In this document: positions 30,416-41,322 of the stretch, piece after piece
How the letters are laid out: every line of letters begins with the position of its first letter
Position numbering within the stretch: the first letter of the stretch is position 1
From: an uncultured Erysipelotrichaceae bacterium
GTDB lineage: Bacteria; Bacillota_I; Bacilli_A; Erysipelotrichales; Erysipelotrichaceae
DNA length: 61,153 bases
Direction of reading: 5' to 3'
Assembly: GCA_947036815.1 (NCBI GenBank)
Contig: CAMQRS010000004.1
Coordinates: forward strand, 1 to 61,153
Position numbers and translations under genes: made by a program
Notes under the pieces: generated by a model
What the model saw: only the letters and a program-made list of their open reading frames with translations
The model's database searches: none
Told to the model about the DNA's origin: nothing

Positions 30416-32209
30416 TTACTGCCAGTTCCATTCTAATATTTTTTTATATAATTCAGCACGTTCTATAATATCTGAACGATTAAATTCCGTGTAACTCTTA
30501 AAAGGAAGATTATTGTTTGTTATAAATCTTTTAAACCCCGGACTTTTACTATACTTAGTTTCATTTAAACTTTGTGCTAAAATATTTTGTCCGTAATAAT
30601 GACTAACTTTCAATGAAAAAGAATCATCTCCATAAGAGGCATTAAAACTCTTAGGTAACAATAGCAGATCCCCTATATTGTTTCTTGTCGCACTAAATTC
30701 AGATTCATTAGAAAACTCTCTCGTGTGTTCATTAAAATGGTCTGACCAGATATGTTCCACTTCAATATCTTTCTTATTAAGCATATAATTTGACTCGTTT
30801 GAGTTAACTGCAACAATTTCAGTTATTAATGATAATAATACTTTTATCTTATTTCTATTCTGTTGATTTAGAATAGGTGCGTTTTTAAGGATTAAAGGTT
30901 CTGTTGTATGGTTTATCAATATTGTTTCAATTTCATTAACTGATTTTCTACGTATCATTTTACATAGTTCATAAATAGAAGCTTCTAGTGCACTTTGTGA
31001 GATGACCCAGTGATTCCAAACTCTCCATGTAAGAATTTTTGTTAAGTATCTAGATACTAACTTGATTTTTTCTGTAACCGTATTCTCGTCATCTTTATAA
31101 TTAATTGCCGAGAGAATTAATGCTGGTTGTAATGTAAATCCATAATCGTAATTAACTACTAAATAGAAAAACTCGTCAGACTTTCTTTCGTGAGTGATAG
31201 CATTAATTCTTTCATACACTTTAGCATAATAAGTAATTTGATGTAAGAACTCTATATAATCATTTGAATTATTTAAACCAATTGACTCGCTATTATCCCT
31301 AAGCCACCTGTGAAATTCATTACCTATACGTGTAAAGTCTGAAGTGGTATTTTTACTTTGTGATAAATCTTCTGCATAATGTCCACGAAAGTAAATTTTG
31401 AAAAAATCAAATTCTGCTTTTGATTTTGAACTTAATTTTATATTCACTAAACGTTTCACAACACTGTCAAATTCAATAACAGCTTGTGCTCTCATTTTAG
31501 TATCAATATTAGCTAAGATGTAACTTCTTATCATTTCAATTTGTGTTAAAGAAAGTCCTCTATCATTCATTGTTTCAAATATAACATAAGCAAAATCATC
31601 ACTGTTTGTCCAAACTTTAGAAAATACAACTTTTTCTTTAAGGTAATACGCAAAGTGCGCAATATTATCTGCATTAATATTATCATTCCAGCAGTTAGCG
31701 ATTTCTGTATATCTTTCCACTAGATTATGTACGGATATAGATTCATCTGGTTGAACAGTATACCCTCCGTTTTCATATAGTGCAAGCATACACTCTTTTC
31801 GCTCTTCTATTTCTAAATTAAAACATTTAAAACCAAAATCATCACTATAAATAAGTTGATCAATATCGGCTTTTGGAAATCCTACAATATTCTTATAATG
31901 TTGTGTTAAGTGTATTAACAGTAAAGTAAACGTAGTGATTCTCTGTTGTCCATCTATTATTGCATTTCTGCCACTTGGTTTTATTGATAAAACAACTTCC
32001 CCCATATAGTATGGATCGTATGTTCTTACTTTTTCTGTTTTATCCCCATTCGTCCAGTTTCTTAAAAACTCCATTGATAAATCATTTACTAAATCTTCAA
32101 GTTGTTTTGTTTGCCATACATATTCACGCTGATAAAAATCAACATCAAATTTTTCAGCAAATAATGTTTTTATAGATACAACTTGACTTTGTACATCTTT
32201 ATTTCCCAT
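30416..32209 (-). CDS. DUF262 + DUF1524 (HNH) protein, GmrSD-like defence nuclease
   Basis: 597 residues. The N-terminal DUF262 (ParB-like/GmrS-type) domain shows 'FYQREYVW' (25-32) and the nucleotide-binding 'DGQQRITTF' (86-94). The C-terminal DUF1524 domain carries the HNH-type core 'EVEHIWSDH' (His486) and 'RNNIGDLLLLPKSFN'. Proteins with both domains include the type IV, modification-dependent enzyme GmrSD and single-chain anti-phage relatives such as BrxU. NTP-driven cleavage of modified phage DNA is therefore the likely role. AAAGG lies before the ATG. The gene follows the RloC-like gene by 53 bases in the same direction and probably shares its mRNA. Confidence 0.88.
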   Translation of the reverse strand: MGNKDVQSQVVSIKTLFAEKFDVDFYQREYVWQTKQLEDLVNDLSMEFLRNWTNGDKTEKVRTYDPYYMGEVVLSIKPSGRNAIIDGQQRITTFTLLLIHLTQHYKNIVGFPKADIDQLIYSDDFGFKCFNLEIEERKECMLALYENGGYTVQPDESISVHNLVERYTEIANCWNDNINADNIAHFAYYLKEKVVFSKVWTNSDDFAYVIFETMNDRGLSLTQIEMIRSYILANIDTKMRAQAVIEFDSVVKRLVNIKLSSKSKAEFDFFKIYFRGHYAEDLSQSKNTTSDFTRIGNEFHRWLRDNSESIGLNNSNDYIEFLHQITYYAKVYERINAITHERKSDEFFYLVVNYDYGFTLQPALILSAINYKDDENTVTEKIKLVSRYLTKILTWRVWNHWVISQSALEASIYELCKMIRRKSVNEIETILINHTTEPLILKNAPILNQQNRNKIKVLLSLITEIVAVNSNESNYMLNKKDIEVEHIWSDHFNEHTREFSNESEFSATRNNIGDLLLLPKSFNASYGDDSFSLKVSHYYGQNILAQSLNETKYSKSPGFKRFITNNNLPFKSYTEFNRSDIIERAELYKKILEWNWQ

Positions 32210-32262: not shown

Positions 32263-34605
32263 TTATCTACCCAATTTTTCTAATTTAGTTTTCCATTTTC
32301 TTATTTCTATTACTTCATCAATTTTGAAATATGCTTTTAAATGATTTTCATATAGTATAAGTATTATAACTAGCGCTATTTTAGCAGCTTCTTCTTTTTC
32401 ATTCTCACTAAAATTTTCAATACTGTCATTTTCATCAAAAGCTTTGACTAAATATTCGCTATGACTCTCGCAATTCACTAATATACCAAGCATGTAGTGA
32501 TCAATAAAACTAGAAACGACCGAATTAGCTCCTTCTATTTCCTCTACTTTCTTGCTAAGTACATCTGGACCTTCGTTGAAGATAAATGATGAAAACATTT
32601 CCATCACTCGTCTAATACTATTACCAATAGTTAGTGAGGTTAACTCACTTGTACCTTTATCTCCAAATAGATAAATATTATTTAAAAGTTTTTTATACTG
32701 ACTTATTCCACTTGTGAAATTGTCATCATATAATATAAATTCTTCTAACCTTTTTGAATTAACTATATTTTTATTACGTGCTTTCGATTTATATACATTT
32801 CTAATAATTTTTTCTAAATTATATGCAACATCATAATTATGAGTTAAAATAATAAACCGGCTCCCCTCATTCCCTTCTATAATTTCTGATATTTTTTTTC
32901 TCAAAAAACTATAAATTCCAATTTTGTTTTCATGATCAAAACTAGTTAACGGATCATCAATAACGACCAAATTTTCATTCTCGTACTTTTGATTAATATT
33001 TTGTTTTGATGCAATAGAAATAAGAAAATAACATAACGAAATAATATTTCATTCTCCAGTTGACAGTTTTGACAACTCAACCGTACTACCTTTACATTTA
33101 ACTATGTAGTTATCTCCATCTAATTCGATATTCAAACGATCGTTTGAACAAAAGACAGAGGCTAAAGATTCATTAATTTCATCAACAGCTAAGTTGAAAT
33201 TCCCCTTTTTACCTTCTAACTCTTTAATTTCATATTTAATTGATTTAATATCTAATATTATTTCATTAAATTCTTTAAGTGCAATATCTCTTTCCTCTAA
33301 TAATTTAAGATATTTTTTATAATCATCTTTAATAAATGATAATGATAGAGAATCATTTATTTCTTCCAAACTTTTCTTTATAGGCTTAATATTTTTCAGG
33401 TCTATATTATGCGTCGATATAAGTGCATTAATTTCACTAATAGCTATATTTAGTTGTTCACCACAAAATATGGCTTTTTCTTCTTGAAATAAAGGTTTAC
33501 TATATAAATTTTCTTTTTTTAATTCAACGTTACTATTAAATAAGTCAACTTGTTCATTGTATTGTTGTGTTTTTATTCGAATATCTTCTTTTTTTTCTAG
33601 CAAAATTATATCTGGTAATTCATCTAATATATATGTATTTAATTTTAATTTATTTAAATCGTCCAACAATTCTTTTTTATCTTTAGAGATAATTTTTTTA
33701 ATTTTATTTACTATAGTTTTTTTATAATCACTTTCTATATGTTTAAAACAAAAGGGACAAAATTGTTCATCTGAATTCATATATAAATTAATTTCATCTA
33801 TCCTAGAAATTCCTGAATTTTCTATCACGTCATATATTTTTAAGGACAAATCATCATCAATAGCCTTATTTAGCACTTTATCTAATAGTTCATCACAATT
33901 TGAACGAAGTTTTAATTCACAATAATTTAATTCTAATTTACATTCGCTGTTATTTTGTTTTAAGACATTATATTTTTTTAGAGCAAAATAAAATTCATCT
34001 GTTGTTCTTTTTATCTTTGAAGAATTTATTATTCTATCTAGAACATCACTTTTAACTGTAGCTTTACGACTTAAACCATCTATTTTTTGTTTCCTAGTAG
34101 CCCACTCTCCATCTTTTTTTAAAGATTCGATAATAGAATTATATATTGTTTGAGGATTATGATGGCTATTTGTGTCATTATATTTTTCTATCTTAATAAG
34201 TTCAATTTTTTCTTCTAACTTTACTAGTTCCTCCTTTTTTTCAATAAGCTTCTCGTCAACCAGTGCATCTTCACCCAATAAAACTATTGTGTCTAACCCA
34301 TTTTCTTTAAATTTTACATTTTCATCAATGAAACGTTCATTATAAATAAAAATTCTCTCAAATTTTTCTTTTGTTATAGGTTCATCATTTAAATCTTTCA
34401 CCTCTATATTTTCATCTTCAAAATTTTTAAATTTGTTATATAATAAATTTCCTATCGTTGTTTTTCCAGATCCATTTCTTCCATAAATAACAGTTGAATC
34501 ATTTTTTAAGTTTTGTTGGTGTTTTTCTAACAATGTGAATTTTGTATAACTATCCTCTCTAAAGGGATTCCCTTTTGCAGATAAAATAAGACCATTTTCA
34601 AACAT
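32263..34605 (-). pseudogene. RloC/PrrC-like ATPase with zinc hook, interrupted by TGA
   Basis: A continuous 780-codon frame with one internal stop. It has Walker A 'GRNGSGKTT' (42-50), a coiled-coil region around the zinc-hook 'FCPFC' (C283, C286), the signature 'LSTGE' (514-518), then TGA at 33049-33051 (codon 519) where the family has Arg. The frame goes straight on with 'NIISLCYFLI', Walker B 'LVVIDDP' (546-552) and 'ILTHN'. The C-terminal region has R665-R-V-M-E669 and 'NCESH' (H715), which resemble the Arg-Glu-His triad of the anticodon nucleases PrrC and RloC. One base change restores a full gene. Without readthrough, the N-terminal part lacks Walker B and should be inactive. The ACNase assignment is inference; the AAA_13-type ATPase is clear. 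GAGGT precedes the ATG. Confidence 0.8.
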
Positions 34606-34986: not shown

Positions 34987-35133
34987 ACCTTCACCTCCTT
35001 GCTAGTTCCCAAGGATACCATAAATTCGAGTGGATAGCTACAACACATTCATACTTAATCATATAAAAACAATTGTAATTCTATATGCATTTTGATATAA
35101 TTGAATTAATGAAAATTGATAGGAGGTTTAATT

Positions 35134-35346
35134 TTGAAAATAATAGATAACTCAAATGAGCCTTGGGTGGGAACAAGAGAAATCGCAGAACACTTAAGTG
35201 TAACAAAAGATACAATACATAAATGGATTAAAGCTGGTATGATACCTTGCTCAAGGGTCGGTAAGCTATGGAAATTTAAAAAATCAGTTGTTGATGCGTG
35301 GGTTGAATCGGGCAAGGCATCGGAGGTTAAAAAAGATGTTTTATAA
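35134..35346 (+). CDS. excisionase-family HTH DNA-binding protein
   Basis: 70 residues from TTG 35134, chosen because AGGAGG lies seven bases upstream; the longer frame from another TTG would place that site inside the gene. The helix-turn-helix 'VGTREIAEHLSVTKDTIHKW' followed by 'IPCSRVGKLWKFKKSVVDAW' is the winged MerR-like fold of the excisionase/HTH_17 family. It directly precedes and overlaps the type III restriction gene by 11 bases, so it is probably a controller of the restriction-modification operon rather than a phage excisionase, since no integrase is nearby. Confidence 0.85.
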   Translation: MKIIDNSNEPWVGTREIAEHLSVTKDTIHKWIKAGMIPCSRVGKLWKFKKSVVDAWVESGKASEVKKDVL

Positions 35347-38215
35347 AATGATAACTAAAAAGAGAGATGAATGGTTCAAATCTTCTTCGTGTACAGTAAT
35401 GAACTTAATTGACTATATGATTTTCAGTGGGCAAATGCGTGATGCACAGATTGAAGCTATAAAAACATATCTTTTTTTGAAAATAGCCTGTGAAAATAAA
35501 CCTTTACATATTTTATTTGCTGAAGGAATGTTTAACTCTATTAATTTTAATGATATTGAACTTAAAAGCCATGTTAAGGAGTATTTGAGTCAAACACCTT
35601 CTACTGCTGCTCTTTTTGAGTATGCAGGGTTATCAGATGATAAGGAGACTATGCTTGCTCCAAAAGTCATTACACAACTTAAAAACAATCCTGAAGAAAT
35701 AGATGCCGTATTTTTTTTAAAAAAAGCATTCTATAATGTTGATTATACAGACTATCTATTTAGCTTACCTATGGGTGCTGGCAAGACATTTTTAATGGCT
35801 TCATTTATTTACCTTGATCTATATTTTGCAAACAATGAGCCAACCAACCCTGCTTTTGCACATAATTTTATTATTTTTGCTCCTTCGGGATTAAAAACAT
35901 CTGTAGTTCCGAGTTTACGTACAATCCAAAACTTTGATCCATCTTGGATACTACCTGAACCAGCTGCATCAGAAATAAAACTCAAACTTATTTTTGAAGT
36001 GCTTGACCAGAATAAAACCGCAACAAAATCAAATAAAACTAAAAATCCTAATGTTCAGAAAATTTCAATACATCAACCATTAGAGGAACTATTCGGACTA
36101 GTTGCAGTAACCAACGCTGAAAAAGTAATCTATGATAGAATTGATAAAGAAGATAAGCAATTAACACTCTTTCCTAAAGAAGAGCAAATGAAAATTTTAC
36201 AAGCAGCTGAATTACGCAAAATTATTGGAAAATTGCCAAATCTATGTATTTACATTGACGAAGTACATCATGCATCAGCGGCAAGCGATACAAAATTAAG
36301 AAAAGTTATAACTGATTGGACGATTCAAAATAAGTTTAATAGCGTAATTGGATTTTCTGGCACGCCATATTTGCAGAAATCAGAAAAGATATCCATTGCA
36401 GAAAAACTTACTTTATCAAGCATTGAGATTTCAAACAACGTTTACTATTACCCTCTTGTCAATGGTATTGGTAACTTTTTAAAACGCCCATCAGTTAGAA
36501 TTTCAAATAGTAAAAATCGTTTAGACATTGTAGAATCTGGTATAAGAGAGTTTTTAGATAAATATAAGGATACAGTTTATTATGATGGTACTTGTGCTAA
36601 ACTTGGTATTTATTGTGGTGGTAACATTGAAACATTAGAGGAAGAGATTTACCCTCTTGTTGAAAGAATTGCTACTGAATACAGGTTGAACTCAAGCGAA
36701 TCAATATTACGCTTTCATGGTGGTAATAAAAAATATCCAATTCCTGTGGATAGTCAATTGCAATTTTCAAGCTTGGACAAGCCTTTTTCAAAGATTAGGA
36801 TTGTATTGTTAGTACAAATAGGCAAAGAAGGTTGGGATTGTAAAAGTTTAACAGGAATAGTTCTCTCTCAAGAAGGTGATTGTCCAACCAATATGGTTCT
36901 CCAAACTTCTTGCCGTTGTTTACGACAGGTTCAAAAAGGTGTAGTTGAAAGTGCCTTAATTTATCTAAACGAATCCAATGCAGAAACTCTCAATATGCAA
37001 CTTAAACAACAACATAATATATCCATTAAAGAATTTGAAAACGGAAACAAGCAATCTGTTACAAAAATAATGCGTTATGAAAGAATAAAACACCTTAAAC
37101 TTCCTAAAGTTGATTTTTACCAACTAAAAGTAAACTATACTACTTTAATAATAGATGAGAGTTTACATACTGGTGAGGAAATTGAAACTTCACCAAGTAA
37201 TGCAGAAGTTTACACCATTACAAAAGAGGGTGAATTTAATAAAACTTTAGAAGTCACGAATATTATTACCGTTCAGACTGAACATGGTAATGTTATTGCA
37301 AACTTTAATTCATGGGTATATGAAATCACTAAACAGAGTTTTGGATTTATAAATTCAAAACAATTATATGAGTATAAAAATGAGTTGAAAAAGGTATTTG
37401 ATAAAATAACTTACGACAACAATGGACTAAGATATTTTAGCTCGAAATTTGATATACAATTTATAAACTCAGTAATTCGTAAATCATTCTATGAAAAGCG
37501 TACATTTGAAACAGTAGAAGAGCTTATTCCATACGAGGCAAATTTATTAAACATTAAAAAATTTTCTACCGAAATTAATACTGTAACACCAGAATCTTAT
37601 TACCCTACACAAGAAATGGTTGATAAGATAATGTTAGACGATAAAGGTAAGTTACAACTTGATGCAAAAATGCAACAAACAATCGATTTTCTTATTGAAA
37701 CCGGTAATCAAAAAATTGCTGATTCATTGAAAGCTGAAGCTATATCGCATGAAATGAAAAATAAAACCTTTCATTATTTACCATATAAAACCGATAGTGC
37801 GTTTGAAATAACGTTTTTAGATGAAGTATTAAAACTTGATGTTGTAAAATCAAGAAATGTTGAAATTTACTACAATGGCGATAGAACTTTAACGGAATTC
37901 AAAATTAAATGTTACAAGAAAAGTAGCTCTAAGTGGACATATATAGGTATATACACACCAGACTTTTTGATAATAAGTAGAAAAAAAAATCAAATATACA
38001 AAGTAGTCGTTGTAGAAACAAAAGGTAAAATTTACGCAAATGACCCTACATTTAAAGATAAACGCAGTTTTATGGAAACAGCCTTTAAAACTAAGAATAA
38101 TGAACAATTTGGATATAATCGTTTTGAATATTTGTATTTAGAGGATAGCTTGCCAGAAACAGATAGAATTTTATCAACAGCAAAAGCAGTTGATGAGTTT
38201 TTTAAGGAGGATTAA
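35336..38215 (+). CDS. type III restriction endonuclease, Res subunit
   Basis: 960 residues from ATG 35336 (GGAGG ten bases upstream); a second in-frame ATG lies 12 bases later. Superfamily 2 helicase core: Walker A 'LPMGAGKT' (144-151), Walker B 'IDEVHH' (307-312), 'SGTP' (341-344), and a late 'QIGKEGWDC...QTSCRCLRQ' region for motifs V-VI. The C-terminal nuclease shows the PD-(D/E)xK pattern P876-D877, E895-x-K897. With the Mod subunit it recognises an asymmetric site, translocates using ATP and cleaves unmethylated DNA. Two extra genes separate it from mod, an unusual arrangement. Confidence 0.93.
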   Translation: MFYKMITKKRDEWFKSSSCTVMNLIDYMIFSGQMRDAQIEAIKTYLFLKIACENKPLHILFAEGMFNSINFNDIELKSHVKEYLSQTPSTAALFEYAGLSDDKETMLAPKVITQLKNNPEEIDAVFFLKKAFYNVDYTDYLFSLPMGAGKTFLMASFIYLDLYFANNEPTNPAFAHNFIIFAPSGLKTSVVPSLRTIQNFDPSWILPEPAASEIKLKLIFEVLDQNKTATKSNKTKNPNVQKISIHQPLEELFGLVAVTNAEKVIYDRIDKEDKQLTLFPKEEQMKILQAAELRKIIGKLPNLCIYIDEVHHASAASDTKLRKVITDWTIQNKFNSVIGFSGTPYLQKSEKISIAEKLTLSSIEISNNVYYYPLVNGIGNFLKRPSVRISNSKNRLDIVESGIREFLDKYKDTVYYDGTCAKLGIYCGGNIETLEEEIYPLVERIATEYRLNSSESILRFHGGNKKYPIPVDSQLQFSSLDKPFSKIRIVLLVQIGKEGWDCKSLTGIVLSQEGDCPTNMVLQTSCRCLRQVQKGVVESALIYLNESNAETLNMQLKQQHNISIKEFENGNKQSVTKIMRYERIKHLKLPKVDFYQLKVNYTTLIIDESLHTGEEIETSPSNAEVYTITKEGEFNKTLEVTNIITVQTEHGNVIANFNSWVYEITKQSFGFINSKQLYEYKNELKKVFDKITYDNNGLRYFSSKFDIQFINSVIRKSFYEKRTFETVEELIPYEANLLNIKKFSTEINTVTPESYYPTQEMVDKIMLDDKGKLQLDAKMQQTIDFLIETGNQKIADSLKAEAISHEMKNKTFHYLPYKTDSAFEITFLDEVLKLDVVKSRNVEIYYNGDRTLTEFKIKCYKKSSSKWTYIGIYTPDFLIISRKKNQIYKVVVVETKGKIYANDPTFKDKRSFMETAFKTKNNEQFGYNRFEYLYLEDSLPETDRILSTAKAVDEFFKED

Positions 38216-38218
38216 TTT

Positions 38219-38626
38219 ATGAAACGAGACATGGAACTAATAAGAACAATACTATTAAAAGTTGAACTTGAGTACGATCCTAAAGATAGAGCAATCAGTA
38301 ATTTGCAGATACCTGGATATGATAAATATACAGTTGATTCTCATTTAAAACTTTTGGAGCAATCCGGTTTTTTTGACAAAATTGTTTGGGTTAAATCTGT
38401 GAGAGCATCTGATAGTGCTATTACTATCAGTAATTTAACTAATATTGGATACGATTATCTTGATAAAATTCGTGATGATGGTACTTGGCAAAAAACAGTT
38501 AAAACGATTACAGATAAAGGTCTTGATATGTCAATTAAAACAATAAGCGCTGTTGCAACAGCTTTTATTACCTCTGCAACAGAGGGAGCTGTTAATGCTA
38601 TTATTAAAACAGGAGGCAATATCTAA
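38219..38626 (+). CDS. DUF2513 protein
   Basis: 135 residues. The N-terminal 90 residues form a winged-helix-like DUF2513 domain: 'MKRDMELIRTILLKVE', 'VDSHLKLLEQSGFFDK', then 'SNLTNIGYDYLDKIRDDGTW'. The family is common in phages, restriction loci and defence islands and has no proved function; the fold suggests a small regulator or sensor. The C-terminal tail is Ala/Thr-rich with a weak hydrophobic stretch (112-128). AAGGAGG lies eight bases before the ATG. It begins three bases after res and overlaps the next gene by one base, so it is part of the operon. Confidence 0.82.
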   Translation: MKRDMELIRTILLKVELEYDPKDRAISNLQIPGYDKYTVDSHLKLLEQSGFFDKIVWVKSVRASDSAITISNLTNIGYDYLDKIRDDGTWQKTVKTITDKGLDMSIKTISAVATAFITSATEGAVNAIIKTGGNI

Positions 38627-39405
38627 TGTGTGATACTGGAAAAGAAATAGCTAAAGAAATCGTTAAACAAGGCTATAGCGATATATCTCCAGCTGTAAAA
38701 GAAACAGCAGGTACTGTTGCAACAGTTGTTGGTTTTTTTAATGATGTTGCTTTATATCCATTGCAAAAGGCTAGAATAAATTTTCAATACAAATTAAAAG
38801 ACTTTGAAAGAGAGGTGGGAGAAAGATACAATAACATACCCGAAGGAAATAGAATAGATCCACCAATATCTATACTTGGACCTACGATAGAAGGATTAAA
38901 ATATACTATTGATGAAAAAGAACTAAGAGACATGTTTGTAAAACTATTAAGCTCATCAATGGATAGTAACACTGTTTCCAAAACACACCCAGCTTTTGTT
39001 GAAATAATAAAACAGTTAAATAAATTAGATGCTGAAATATTACGTTTTTTAAATATTCTTCCAATAGATAGATATCCAATAGCAAATGTTAACTTTAGAT
39101 ATAAAAGTGGAGGCGGTAACATTATTGGGGTTATGCCTAAACTTTATTCTGCCGATCTTTGTGATTTAGGAGAACCATTTGCTATTTCTTCTACACTTGA
39201 AAATTTAAACAGATTAGGAATAGTATCTGTTGACTTTACTAGCTGGTTTGAGAATAAGAAATATGAAAATTATAAAACTTCTCCATTTGTACTAAATAAA
39301 TATAAGCAATTACAATGTGAAGAAAATAATATAATTATAAATGTTACACCAGCCAGTTTAGCTATTACAGATTTTGGAAGACAATTTTTAAATATATGTG
39401 TCTAA
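38626..39405 (+). CDS. DUF4393 (Abi-alpha) protein
   Basis: 259 residues. The N-terminal 'EIVKQGYSDISPAVKETAGT' helix, 'YPLQKARINFQYKL' and 'KYTIDEKELRDMFVKLLSSS' match the DUF4393 family, which is also listed as an abortive-infection alpha protein. Such genes are often paired with DUF2513 genes, as here. The mechanism is unknown. The gene lies between res and mod in one apparent transcript, which suggests a back-up defence that acts with, or if failing, after the restriction system. CTAATG coupling joins it to the DUF2513 gene. Confidence 0.8.
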   Translation: MCDTGKEIAKEIVKQGYSDISPAVKETAGTVATVVGFFNDVALYPLQKARINFQYKLKDFEREVGERYNNIPEGNRIDPPISILGPTIEGLKYTIDEKELRDMFVKLLSSSMDSNTVSKTHPAFVEIIKQLNKLDAEILRFLNILPIDRYPIANVNFRYKSGGGNIIGVMPKLYSADLCDLGEPFAISSTLENLNRLGIVSVDFTSWFENKKYENYKTSPFVLNKYKQLQCEENNIIINVTPASLAITDFGRQFLNICV

Positions 39406-39420
39406 AAGGAGGGCTATTAA

Positions 39421-41322
39421 ATGCCAATTAAATATATACCGTTTTTTCCTGACCCAATAGAGGGCCAGGCTATATTAGACAATTTTAAACGTACACTTAA
39501 ATACAAAGGTTCTTATGATATAACTGGCAGACTTAAACGTGGTATGCCTCTTTATGAAATGGAAAAACAAGAAACAGTGGGAGAAAATAAAGATGGTAAC
39601 TTGGTTATCCGTGGAGAATGTGTTTCTGCCTGTGCATATTTAAAGGAGCAAGGCATCTTTGTTGATCTTGTCTACATAGACCCACCTTTTGCAAGTGGTG
39701 CTGACTATGCTAAAAAAGTTTATATTCGCAAGAATCCAAAAGTTGCCGAAGCCATAGTTAAAGCTGAGGAAGAGTTAGATGTTGGTGATGCTTTTAGAAC
39801 GTTTGAGGAAACTATGTATGGCGATGTTTGGGATAAAGAAAAATATCTTAACTGGATGTATGAAAACTTAATGGCTATTAAAAGCGTTATGAGTGAAACA
39901 GGAAGCATTTATGTTCATTTAGATTGGCATATAGGCCATTATGTTAAGATTTTACTTGATGAAATTTTTGGTGAGCACAATTTCAGAAATGAAATCATTT
40001 GGTGTTACAAAACATCGTTGAGATCTTCATCGAGATCATTCGGCAGAGACCACGACTCTATACTGTTTTATGCAGTTAATGATACCGTTACTATCCATCC
40101 TGACAAGTCAGATTTTCCTGCTAGTGAAAGTACATTAAAGCGTTGGGGTGATTATGCTGATGAAGATGGATTTGTAAGTAACAAACACTTTGCTGGAAGC
40201 GAAAGCACTATTATAGATACAACTGATGAGACAAAAGGATTTAATATAAATAATGGGATACCTCGTGATTGGTGGGAGTTATCAGCAAATGTAGCAAAAG
40301 GTAATACCGACGAAGTAATCGCTGGTAAATACGCTACGCAAAAGCCCTTAGAATTATTAAATCGCATTATAAAATCCTCATCAGATGACAATATGGTAAT
40401 TGCGGATTTTTTTGGTGGTAGTGGTGTTGCCTCCGTTGCTGCAAACAAGCTTGGAAGACGTTTTATCCATTGTGATATTGGAATTAATTCAATTCAAACA
40501 ACTCGCGATAGACTTGTAGCAGATAAAGCAGAATTCGATATTCTTGAAATAAAAGATGGTGTTTCTCTTTATCGCAATCCTCAACAAACAATGGACAAAA
40601 TTAAATCTCTAATTTCAGGACTGAAAAATGACGGTGGGTTAGATAATTTTTGGGATGGCTCTATTTCTGATAGTAAACTTGGCTCTATACCTGTTTATGT
40701 TCCTAATCTTATGGATAGTAGTACAAAATTACTTGACGAAGTTTTGATGAACCGTATTCTACACGAAGCAGTACCAGATCTTAATAGTAACGTAAAGAAA
40801 GTTATTGTTTACTACATTGATGTTACTGATAAAGCAGAAATTGAAAAGTTTATAAAAGAGGATGATAGCACAATTATCGACATTGAGCTTCGTGACTTAA
40901 AAGAAGTTTTAGATGATGTTGTAGTTGAGGATTATGCTGAATTCAGTTGTGAGCAAGTACAAGAAAATTTATTACCTGAATATAAGGTCGATATAAAAAG
41001 GTTTATGAGTGACCGAGTAAATCAAAAAATTGATGCTTTTAATCAGAAAGCTTTTGCTAACTCAAGTGAGAAAAAACCATATAACCCTATTATAATTAGT
41101 GAGTATGGATTAGAACTTATCGAGTTTATTTCGCTTGATTGTACCGACGATAGCTCTATGTGGCACTCTGATAGTGAAATTAAAATCGATAAGCTTGGAT
41201 ATATGATTGTAAATGGAATAAAAATAAAAGATTTTTGGGACGGAAGTATTAAGTCGGATAAAGAACCACTTAAGCTGAAAATTAGAAATATATGTGGGGA
41301 TGAAACAGTTCATTTAATCTAA
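39421..41322 (+). CDS. type III DNA methyltransferase, Mod subunit
   Basis: 633 residues. Beta-class order: catalytic 'IDPPF' (87-90 as DPPF) first, 'TQKPLELLNRII' (306-317) and then the AdoMet-binding 'ADFFGGSG' (motif I, 331-335). The middle region (about 180-290) is the variable target-recognition domain that sets the site, which cannot be read from sequence; DPPF/DPPY enzymes of this class usually make N6-methyladenine. AAAGGAGGG precedes the ATG. It completes the type III operon. No phase-variable simple repeat is visible in the gene. Confidence 0.92.
   Translation: MPIKYIPFFPDPIEGQAILDNFKRTLKYKGSYDITGRLKRGMPLYEMEKQETVGENKDGNLVIRGECVSACAYLKEQGIFVDLVYIDPPFASGADYAKKVYIRKNPKVAEAIVKAEEELDVGDAFRTFEETMYGDVWDKEKYLNWMYENLMAIKSVMSETGSIYVHLDWHIGHYVKILLDEIFGEHNFRNEIIWCYKTSLRSSSRSFGRDHDSILFYAVNDTVTIHPDKSDFPASESTLKRWGDYADEDGFVSNKHFAGSESTIIDTTDETKGFNINNGIPRDWWELSANVAKGNTDEVIAGKYATQKPLELLNRIIKSSSDDNMVIADFFGGSGVASVAANKLGRRFIHCDIGINSIQTTRDRLVADKAEFDILEIKDGVSLYRNPQQTMDKIKSLISGLKNDGGLDNFWDGSISDSKLGSIPVYVPNLMDSSTKLLDEVLMNRILHEAVPDLNSNVKKVIVYYIDVTDKAEIEKFIKEDDSTIIDIELRDLKEVLDDVVVEDYAEFSCEQVQENLLPEYKVDIKRFMSDRVNQKIDAFNQKAFANSSEKKPYNPIIISEYGLELIEFISLDCTDDSSMWHSDSEIKIDKLGYMIVNGIKIKDFWDGSIKSDKEPLKLKIRNICGDETVHLI

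Follow-up and report, generated by a model that had tools for sequence, protein, structure and literature searches.

The five genes at positions 35134 to 41322 of the window (the whole 61,153-nucleotide stretch of DNA analysed) are best interpreted as a type III-like restriction operon in which res precedes mod. The junction between these two genes probably serves (with a probability of about 0.6, on the basis of sequence comparisons) as an exchange slot for accessory, mostly independent backup anti-phage genes.

Organization of the operon

The genes lie on the + strand in the order HTH, res, DUF2513, DUF4393 (hereafter referred to as Abi-alpha) and mod, and all five open reading frames are intact. 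This order was correctly described in the original prediction, as were the overlaps or gaps of fewer than 20 bases between the genes: the successive boundaries measure -11, +3, -1 and +15 bases. The first gene (35134..35346, +; TTG start) encodes a 70 aa HTH_17/excisionase-type DNA-binding protein (Pfam, 48.7 bits), the presumed controller, and overlaps res by 11 bases. The res product (35336..38215, +; ATG start; 959 aa), which has a ResIII match, comprises an SF2 helicase and, at its C terminus, a PD-(D/E)XK nuclease. A gap of 3 bases separates res from the gene encoding the 135 aa DUF2513 protein (38219..38626, +; 75.6 bits against a cut-off of 29.6), which overlaps the 259 aa Abi-alpha gene (38626..39405, +; PADLOC PDC-S47; 165.7 bits against a cut-off of 29) through the sequence TAATG. 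Finally, 15 bases beyond Abi-alpha, mod (39421..41322, +) encodes a 633 aa beta-class adenine-N6/cytosine-N4 DNA methyltransferase (N6_N4_Mtase, 128 bits). Its target-recognition region, corresponding to the second variable stretch in the alignment columns, lies at approximately 40000..40330 (+), with limits in the window assigned by position. The region between the res stop and the mod start (38216..39420, +), delimited by locus comparison and containing two genes in the window, is hereafter referred to as the slot. The five-gene arrangement, judged from the sequence, exceeds chance, and the family matches are far above the curated cut-offs.

A sigma-A-type promoter (35073..35101, +; TTGTAA-17-TATAAT with a TG extension; 10 of 12 matches) sits just 5' of the HTH gene and is the presumed operon promoter. 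No terminators were found at the gene boundaries, and promoter-like matches in the operon region occurred at chance level. One promoter would drive the entire unit as a single transcript, which the HTH protein probably autoregulates, presumably by repression. The HTH_17 protein has 73% identity to its positional counterpart in a Fusibacter locus (L038). In seven loci (L039, L046, L049, L050, L061, L079 and L095), the controller position is occupied by a Cro/C1-type HTH_26 protein rather than HTH_17 (called with Pfam for L039 and L079, and by eye for the remaining five), so the regulator upstream of res also varies across the family.

The restriction operon has defence-related neighbours. An AAA_13 gene (32263-34605, - strand; PADLOC PDC-S06, weakly PrrC-like) is divergent from it and is interrupted in its ABC signature region by an in-frame TGA (33051-33049). 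A gene for a GmrSD-type restriction protein (30416-32209, - strand; PADLOC HEC-06) adjoins this broken gene. The GmrSD-type gene, the broken AAA_13 gene and the restriction operon form a small defence island.

A res-first family of type III-like systems

The product of mod has the characteristics of a type III Mod subunit, as a beta-class N6-adenine methyltransferase related to EcoP15I Mod (4zcf_A, 2e-16), with further PDB matches to 7dsu_A and 6k0w_B and a match to the PADLOC MTase_III model (9.9e-45). Likewise, Res has the SF2 ATPase followed by a PD-(D/E)XK nuclease that defines the type III Res subunit. Its GAGKT, DEVHH, GTPY and PD..E.K residues are intact in the window and invariant among relatives, and the top PDB fold match of its predicted structure, which is of moderate quality (pLDDT 72), is EcoP15I Res (4zcf_C, E 3.3e-8). 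EcoP15I and EcoP1I thus share with the window a beta-class Mod and a helicase-nuclease Res, whereas the window family is res-first, with genes between res and mod, and no sequence likeness between its Res and P1 Res was detected outside the ATPase region. As only the ATPase motif region was aligned with P1 Res by hhalign (probability 10.7), and no PADLOC model matched Res, the system is referred to here as "type III-like".

A scan of viral contigs yielded three full-length Res relatives (45-50% identity), and a scan of species genomes with these three identified 401 relatives, the best 80 of which (L038-L117, most from metagenome assemblies) were examined. Both res and mod were readable in 77 loci (the window, L016, L018 and 74 of the best 80 of the 401 relatives). 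In all 77, res precedes mod, and about 64% carry genes between the two. For this family, these results contradict the original prediction, in which mod normally comes first, directly beside res. They also recast the question it raised, of how self-methylation could precede cleavage with mod in last position: as the res-first order holds throughout these loci, mod-last is the ordinary arrangement, and the puzzle concerns the whole family rather than a rearrangement in this genome. Plasmid Res matches at 23-27% identity were set aside, as they belong mostly to another group, with a helicase-mod-res order in which mod and res are adjacent.

A search with a single Res sequence, of low sensitivity, detected no relative in the family, class and phylum of the window (273, 395 and 392 genomes, respectively); the Res family is rare near this lineage. 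In a quick Res tree, the window Res grouped with those of the Fusibacter locus L038 and of L039 (support 91). The slot is empty in L038, which has an HTH gene of the same type as the window, and contains DUF2513 alone in L039. The window and its nearest relatives would therefore appear as a natural series, from an empty slot to DUF2513 and then to DUF2513 with Abi-alpha. Two relatives carry further genes of note beyond mod: in L016 (8753-12332), mod is directly followed by a Hachiman-type pair consisting of HamA (1.7e-128) and a helicase, and in L018 (5167-7441), its downstream genes include one with a TIR domain and one of the Panacea/SocA type.

Contents of the slot

Nothing recognizable was present at the res-mod junction in 28 of the 77 loci, and about 49 contained one to three genes (the occupancy of L091 being uncertain). 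Clustering, in which sequences similar at E < 1e-4 were grouped, and family searches distinguished at least 18 kinds of cargo. The most frequent were DUF2513 (10 loci, including the window and L074) and PDC-S32-like genes (nine loci), followed by PD-T7-3 (four loci; 4.5e-124), Abi-alpha (three loci), AbiJ_NTD4 with DUF7014 (two loci) and DUF5677 (two loci). Further cargo included RhuM/PDC-S05 (6.8e-152), HEC-02A (7.4e-116) and HEC-02B (1.8e-47), several families without a name and a weak match to PIN. Families filed as anti-phage are present in at least 20 of the approximately 49 occupied loci, with PADLOC names used here as labels rather than as proof, and several kinds of cargo matched no defence model. 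PD-T7-3 was identified by functional selection and confers protection from T-even phages (PMC9519451). Abi-alpha and DUF2513 both have the features of embedded cargo, as they lie between the core genes, on the same strand and in register, and recur in relatives.

A protein of 66-68 aa belonging to no known family was found in the slot of six loci (L044, L045, L056, L059, L064 and L067), mostly alone; its gene is a candidate for a new small gene of defence or regulation. A membrane-effector role for all cargo was considered and dropped, as 21 of 64 cargo proteins exceeded a hydropathy of 1.6, versus 28% of background frames.

Turnover of the slot and position of the breakpoints

Parsimony on the Res tree requires a minimum of 39 changes in cargo state across the 77 tips, without separating gain from loss. 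For the occupied loci alone, 33 cargo changes were counted, versus 33-40 with shuffled labels; the kind of cargo is therefore nearly independent of descent. The same is not true of the empty or occupied state, which changes 11 times, versus 18-28 times with shuffled labels. Several families returned repeatedly, with nine changes for DUF2513, nine for PDC-S32 and three for Abi-alpha.

The exchange was visible at the nucleotide level in six pairs of closely related loci (L044/L051, L072/L113, L084/L101, L047/L055, L075/L082 and L078/L089; hereafter referred to as near pairs). DNA identity across res was 78-95%, and similarity ended no more than about 35 bases from the res stop; beyond this point, the cargo was unrelated or absent, and similarity resumed at the mod start codon. 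It was lost a second time from mod +570 to about +900 (+1082 in one pair), in the recognition region, after which the sequences of most pairs were similar again to the end of mod. One sharp exchange was found between L072 (Abi-alpha; Oscillibacter valericigenes An411) and L113 (PDC-S32-like; Pseudoflavonifractor sp. An184); both records are labelled as isolates, so slot exchange is not solely a metagenome effect. The conserved res and mod arms suggest homologous recombination as the swap route, by which the cargo, and likewise the recognition region of mod, would be replaced.

In most near pairs, similarity begins about 15 bases before res and finishes at mod, and the cassette itself thus shifts between contexts. 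Together with the 28 empty slots, this is what would be expected if the two window genes were neutral insertions hitch-hiking on a mobile restriction cassette, with no defence role here. We consider such passive transport highly improbable, given the proportion of occupied loci holding families filed as anti-phage, the independent returns of the same families, and the intact and tightly spaced reading frames of the window.

Abi-alpha and DUF2513

The window Abi-alpha protein matches profile PF14337 over its whole domain (positions 2-196 of 196) but is only 35-37% identical to its slot counterparts, which weighs against the proposed reading of the operon. The only fold match of note for its structure model (pLDDT 86) was PDB 3h35 (E 0.002); a sequence search of solved structures returned nothing. 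The Abi-alpha of Enterococcus faecalis (EF2833, prophage 6), when cloned, causes premature lysis of phage-infected cells, and the family is common in prophages (PMC6356687). The window protein shares with EF2833 its Pfam family and a link to PDB 3h35, which is also named in that paper; EF2833 differs in being located in a prophage rather than in a restriction operon. With three sequences, no DUF4393 match was obtained in viral contigs; a wider alignment gave 192. The slot Abi-alpha proteins share a clade with free-standing prophage genes (L135 and L136), around which no restriction genes were found in the 4-7 kb fetched, so the slot and prophages appear to draw on one Abi-alpha pool.

The DUF2513 protein has a conserved C-terminal hydrophobic stretch. 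It had no match in PADLOC, a sequence search of solved structures gave nothing credible, and no publication on this family was found in a literature search of partial coverage. On the strength of its recurrence in the slot, we predict that DUF2513 is a defence or defence-helper gene.

The adjacency of the two genes, with their TAATG overlap, raises the question of whether DUF2513, with its small size and hydrophobic tail, acts as a partner of Abi-alpha or as its antitoxin, the two having arrived together as a toxin-antitoxin-like pair. DUF2513 also lies beside another cargo gene in L068, L070, L111 and probably L074, and DUF4393 and DUF2513 are 433 bases apart on the same strand in the pneumococcal-type prophages L118 (2351-3952) and L163 (2851-4452), the only other close pairing seen. 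Joint occurrence is nevertheless the exception. Among the approximately 83 loci inspected, the window alone has both genes in the slot; Abi-alpha occurs without DUF2513 in L072 and L076, DUF2513 occurs without Abi-alpha in nine loci, and nearly all other prophage copies of either gene lack the other within about 3 kb. A pair of this type is therefore very doubtful. An order confined to this operon was one of two observations named in the original prediction as counting against it, and a conserved res-DUF2513-DUF4393-mod order must indeed be rejected for the loci inspected. The components fared better than the combination, with Abi-alpha alone in the same slot at two other places in the tree and DUF2513 in nine other loci.

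Probable independence of the cargo from restriction

The original prediction proposed a composite system in which an abortive response is tied to restriction. A composite defence operon is supported, and DUF4393 is a member of the experimentally defined Abi-alpha family, but the presence of at least 18 kinds of cargo, beside res and mod genes that are 78-95% identical in near pairs, argues for exchangeable, largely independent cargo rather than for such a tie. One form of the tie would be a guard like PrrC in EcoprrI: DUF2513, Abi-alpha or both would watch Res-Mod and fire solely if a phage blocked or evaded it. The location of the genes within the operon, with overlapping or nearly overlapping reading frames, is consistent with such a role, and PrrC (PMC12707154) and DarTG2 (PMC12255303) provide precedents for effectors within restriction operons. 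A guard should, however, be specifically paired with its enzyme, whereas the near pairs flank unrelated cargo with no visible matching co-evolution; moreover, Abi-alpha is found in the E. faecalis prophage outside any restriction operon, and its nearest relatives include free-standing prophage genes. We therefore regard the guard model as unlikely.

The cargo could possibly respond, instead of independently, to a general trigger usable by any effector. The operon would then be a chassis with two exchange points, the recognition region of mod and the backup effector, any effector being released by a common signal of failed or blocked restriction, which we consider decidedly unlikely. Some co-operation between cargo and restriction is possible, given that TgvAB, two genes of the type I operon of Vibrio cholerae VPI-2, protected 10 to 100-fold less alone than the whole cluster did (PMC11411939). 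Nevertheless, the turnover of the slot, the activity of Abi-alpha outside restriction operons and the protection conferred by TgvAB without HsdR (PMC11411939) together argue for cargo acting largely alone.

For an operon with largely independent cargo, Mod would methylate its own site, and Res would cut unmodified incoming DNA, for which it should need Mod to find targets. Abi-alpha would provide a second line of defence, with phages that escape restriction meeting early lysis or another abortive end before the maturation of their progeny. Infection is probably sensed by Abi-alpha directly, and not via Res or Mod. DUF2513 may assist in, or add to, this defence.

Relationship to known embedded systems and implications

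Defence genes embedded in restriction operons have already been published, for PrrC, DarTG2, TgvAB and the PDC/HEC sets. In the Escherichia coli RptR-HsdMS-DarTG2-HsdR island, RptR is an HTH repressor (PMC12255303); as in the window, a small HTH gene comes first, followed by a restriction operon whose core genes enclose a toxin-type defence pair, but the system is type I, the cargo is different, and the regulators are likened by position and type. TgvAB likewise consists of two genes embedded between core restriction genes, in a type I host and with type IV restriction rather than Abi-alpha as the cargo. PrrC, in the EcoprrI type IC locus, resembles Abi-alpha as an abortive effector gene within a restriction operon, but is a guard triggered by inhibition of the host enzyme (PMC12707154), a dependence not indicated for the window operon. 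The PDC and HEC families were found by guilt-by-embedding (Payne et al. 2024, preprint, as cited in PMC12988326 and PMC12255303), and the slot holds several of them (Abi-alpha as PDC-S47, together with PDC-S32, PDC-S05 and HEC-02). The slot differs from that work, as the citing papers describe it, in involving one junction of one type III-like family, with rapid swaps and sharp breakpoints, and in the recurrence of DUF2513, which has no PADLOC match. A literature search of partial coverage found no paper on a cargo slot within a res-first family of type III-like systems; the fast-turnover slot in this family and DUF2513 as recurrent cargo appear to be new.

A fixed slot bounded by conserved res and mod genes lends itself to the mining of anti-phage genes, with anything between them a candidate. 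The slot already houses a validated family, PD-T7-3, and its contents predict a defence function for DUF2513 and for several families without a name. The slot also renders testable the question of whether an embedded defence gene works with its restriction host or merely travels along with it, as closely similar res-mod pairs with different cargo constitute natural controls.
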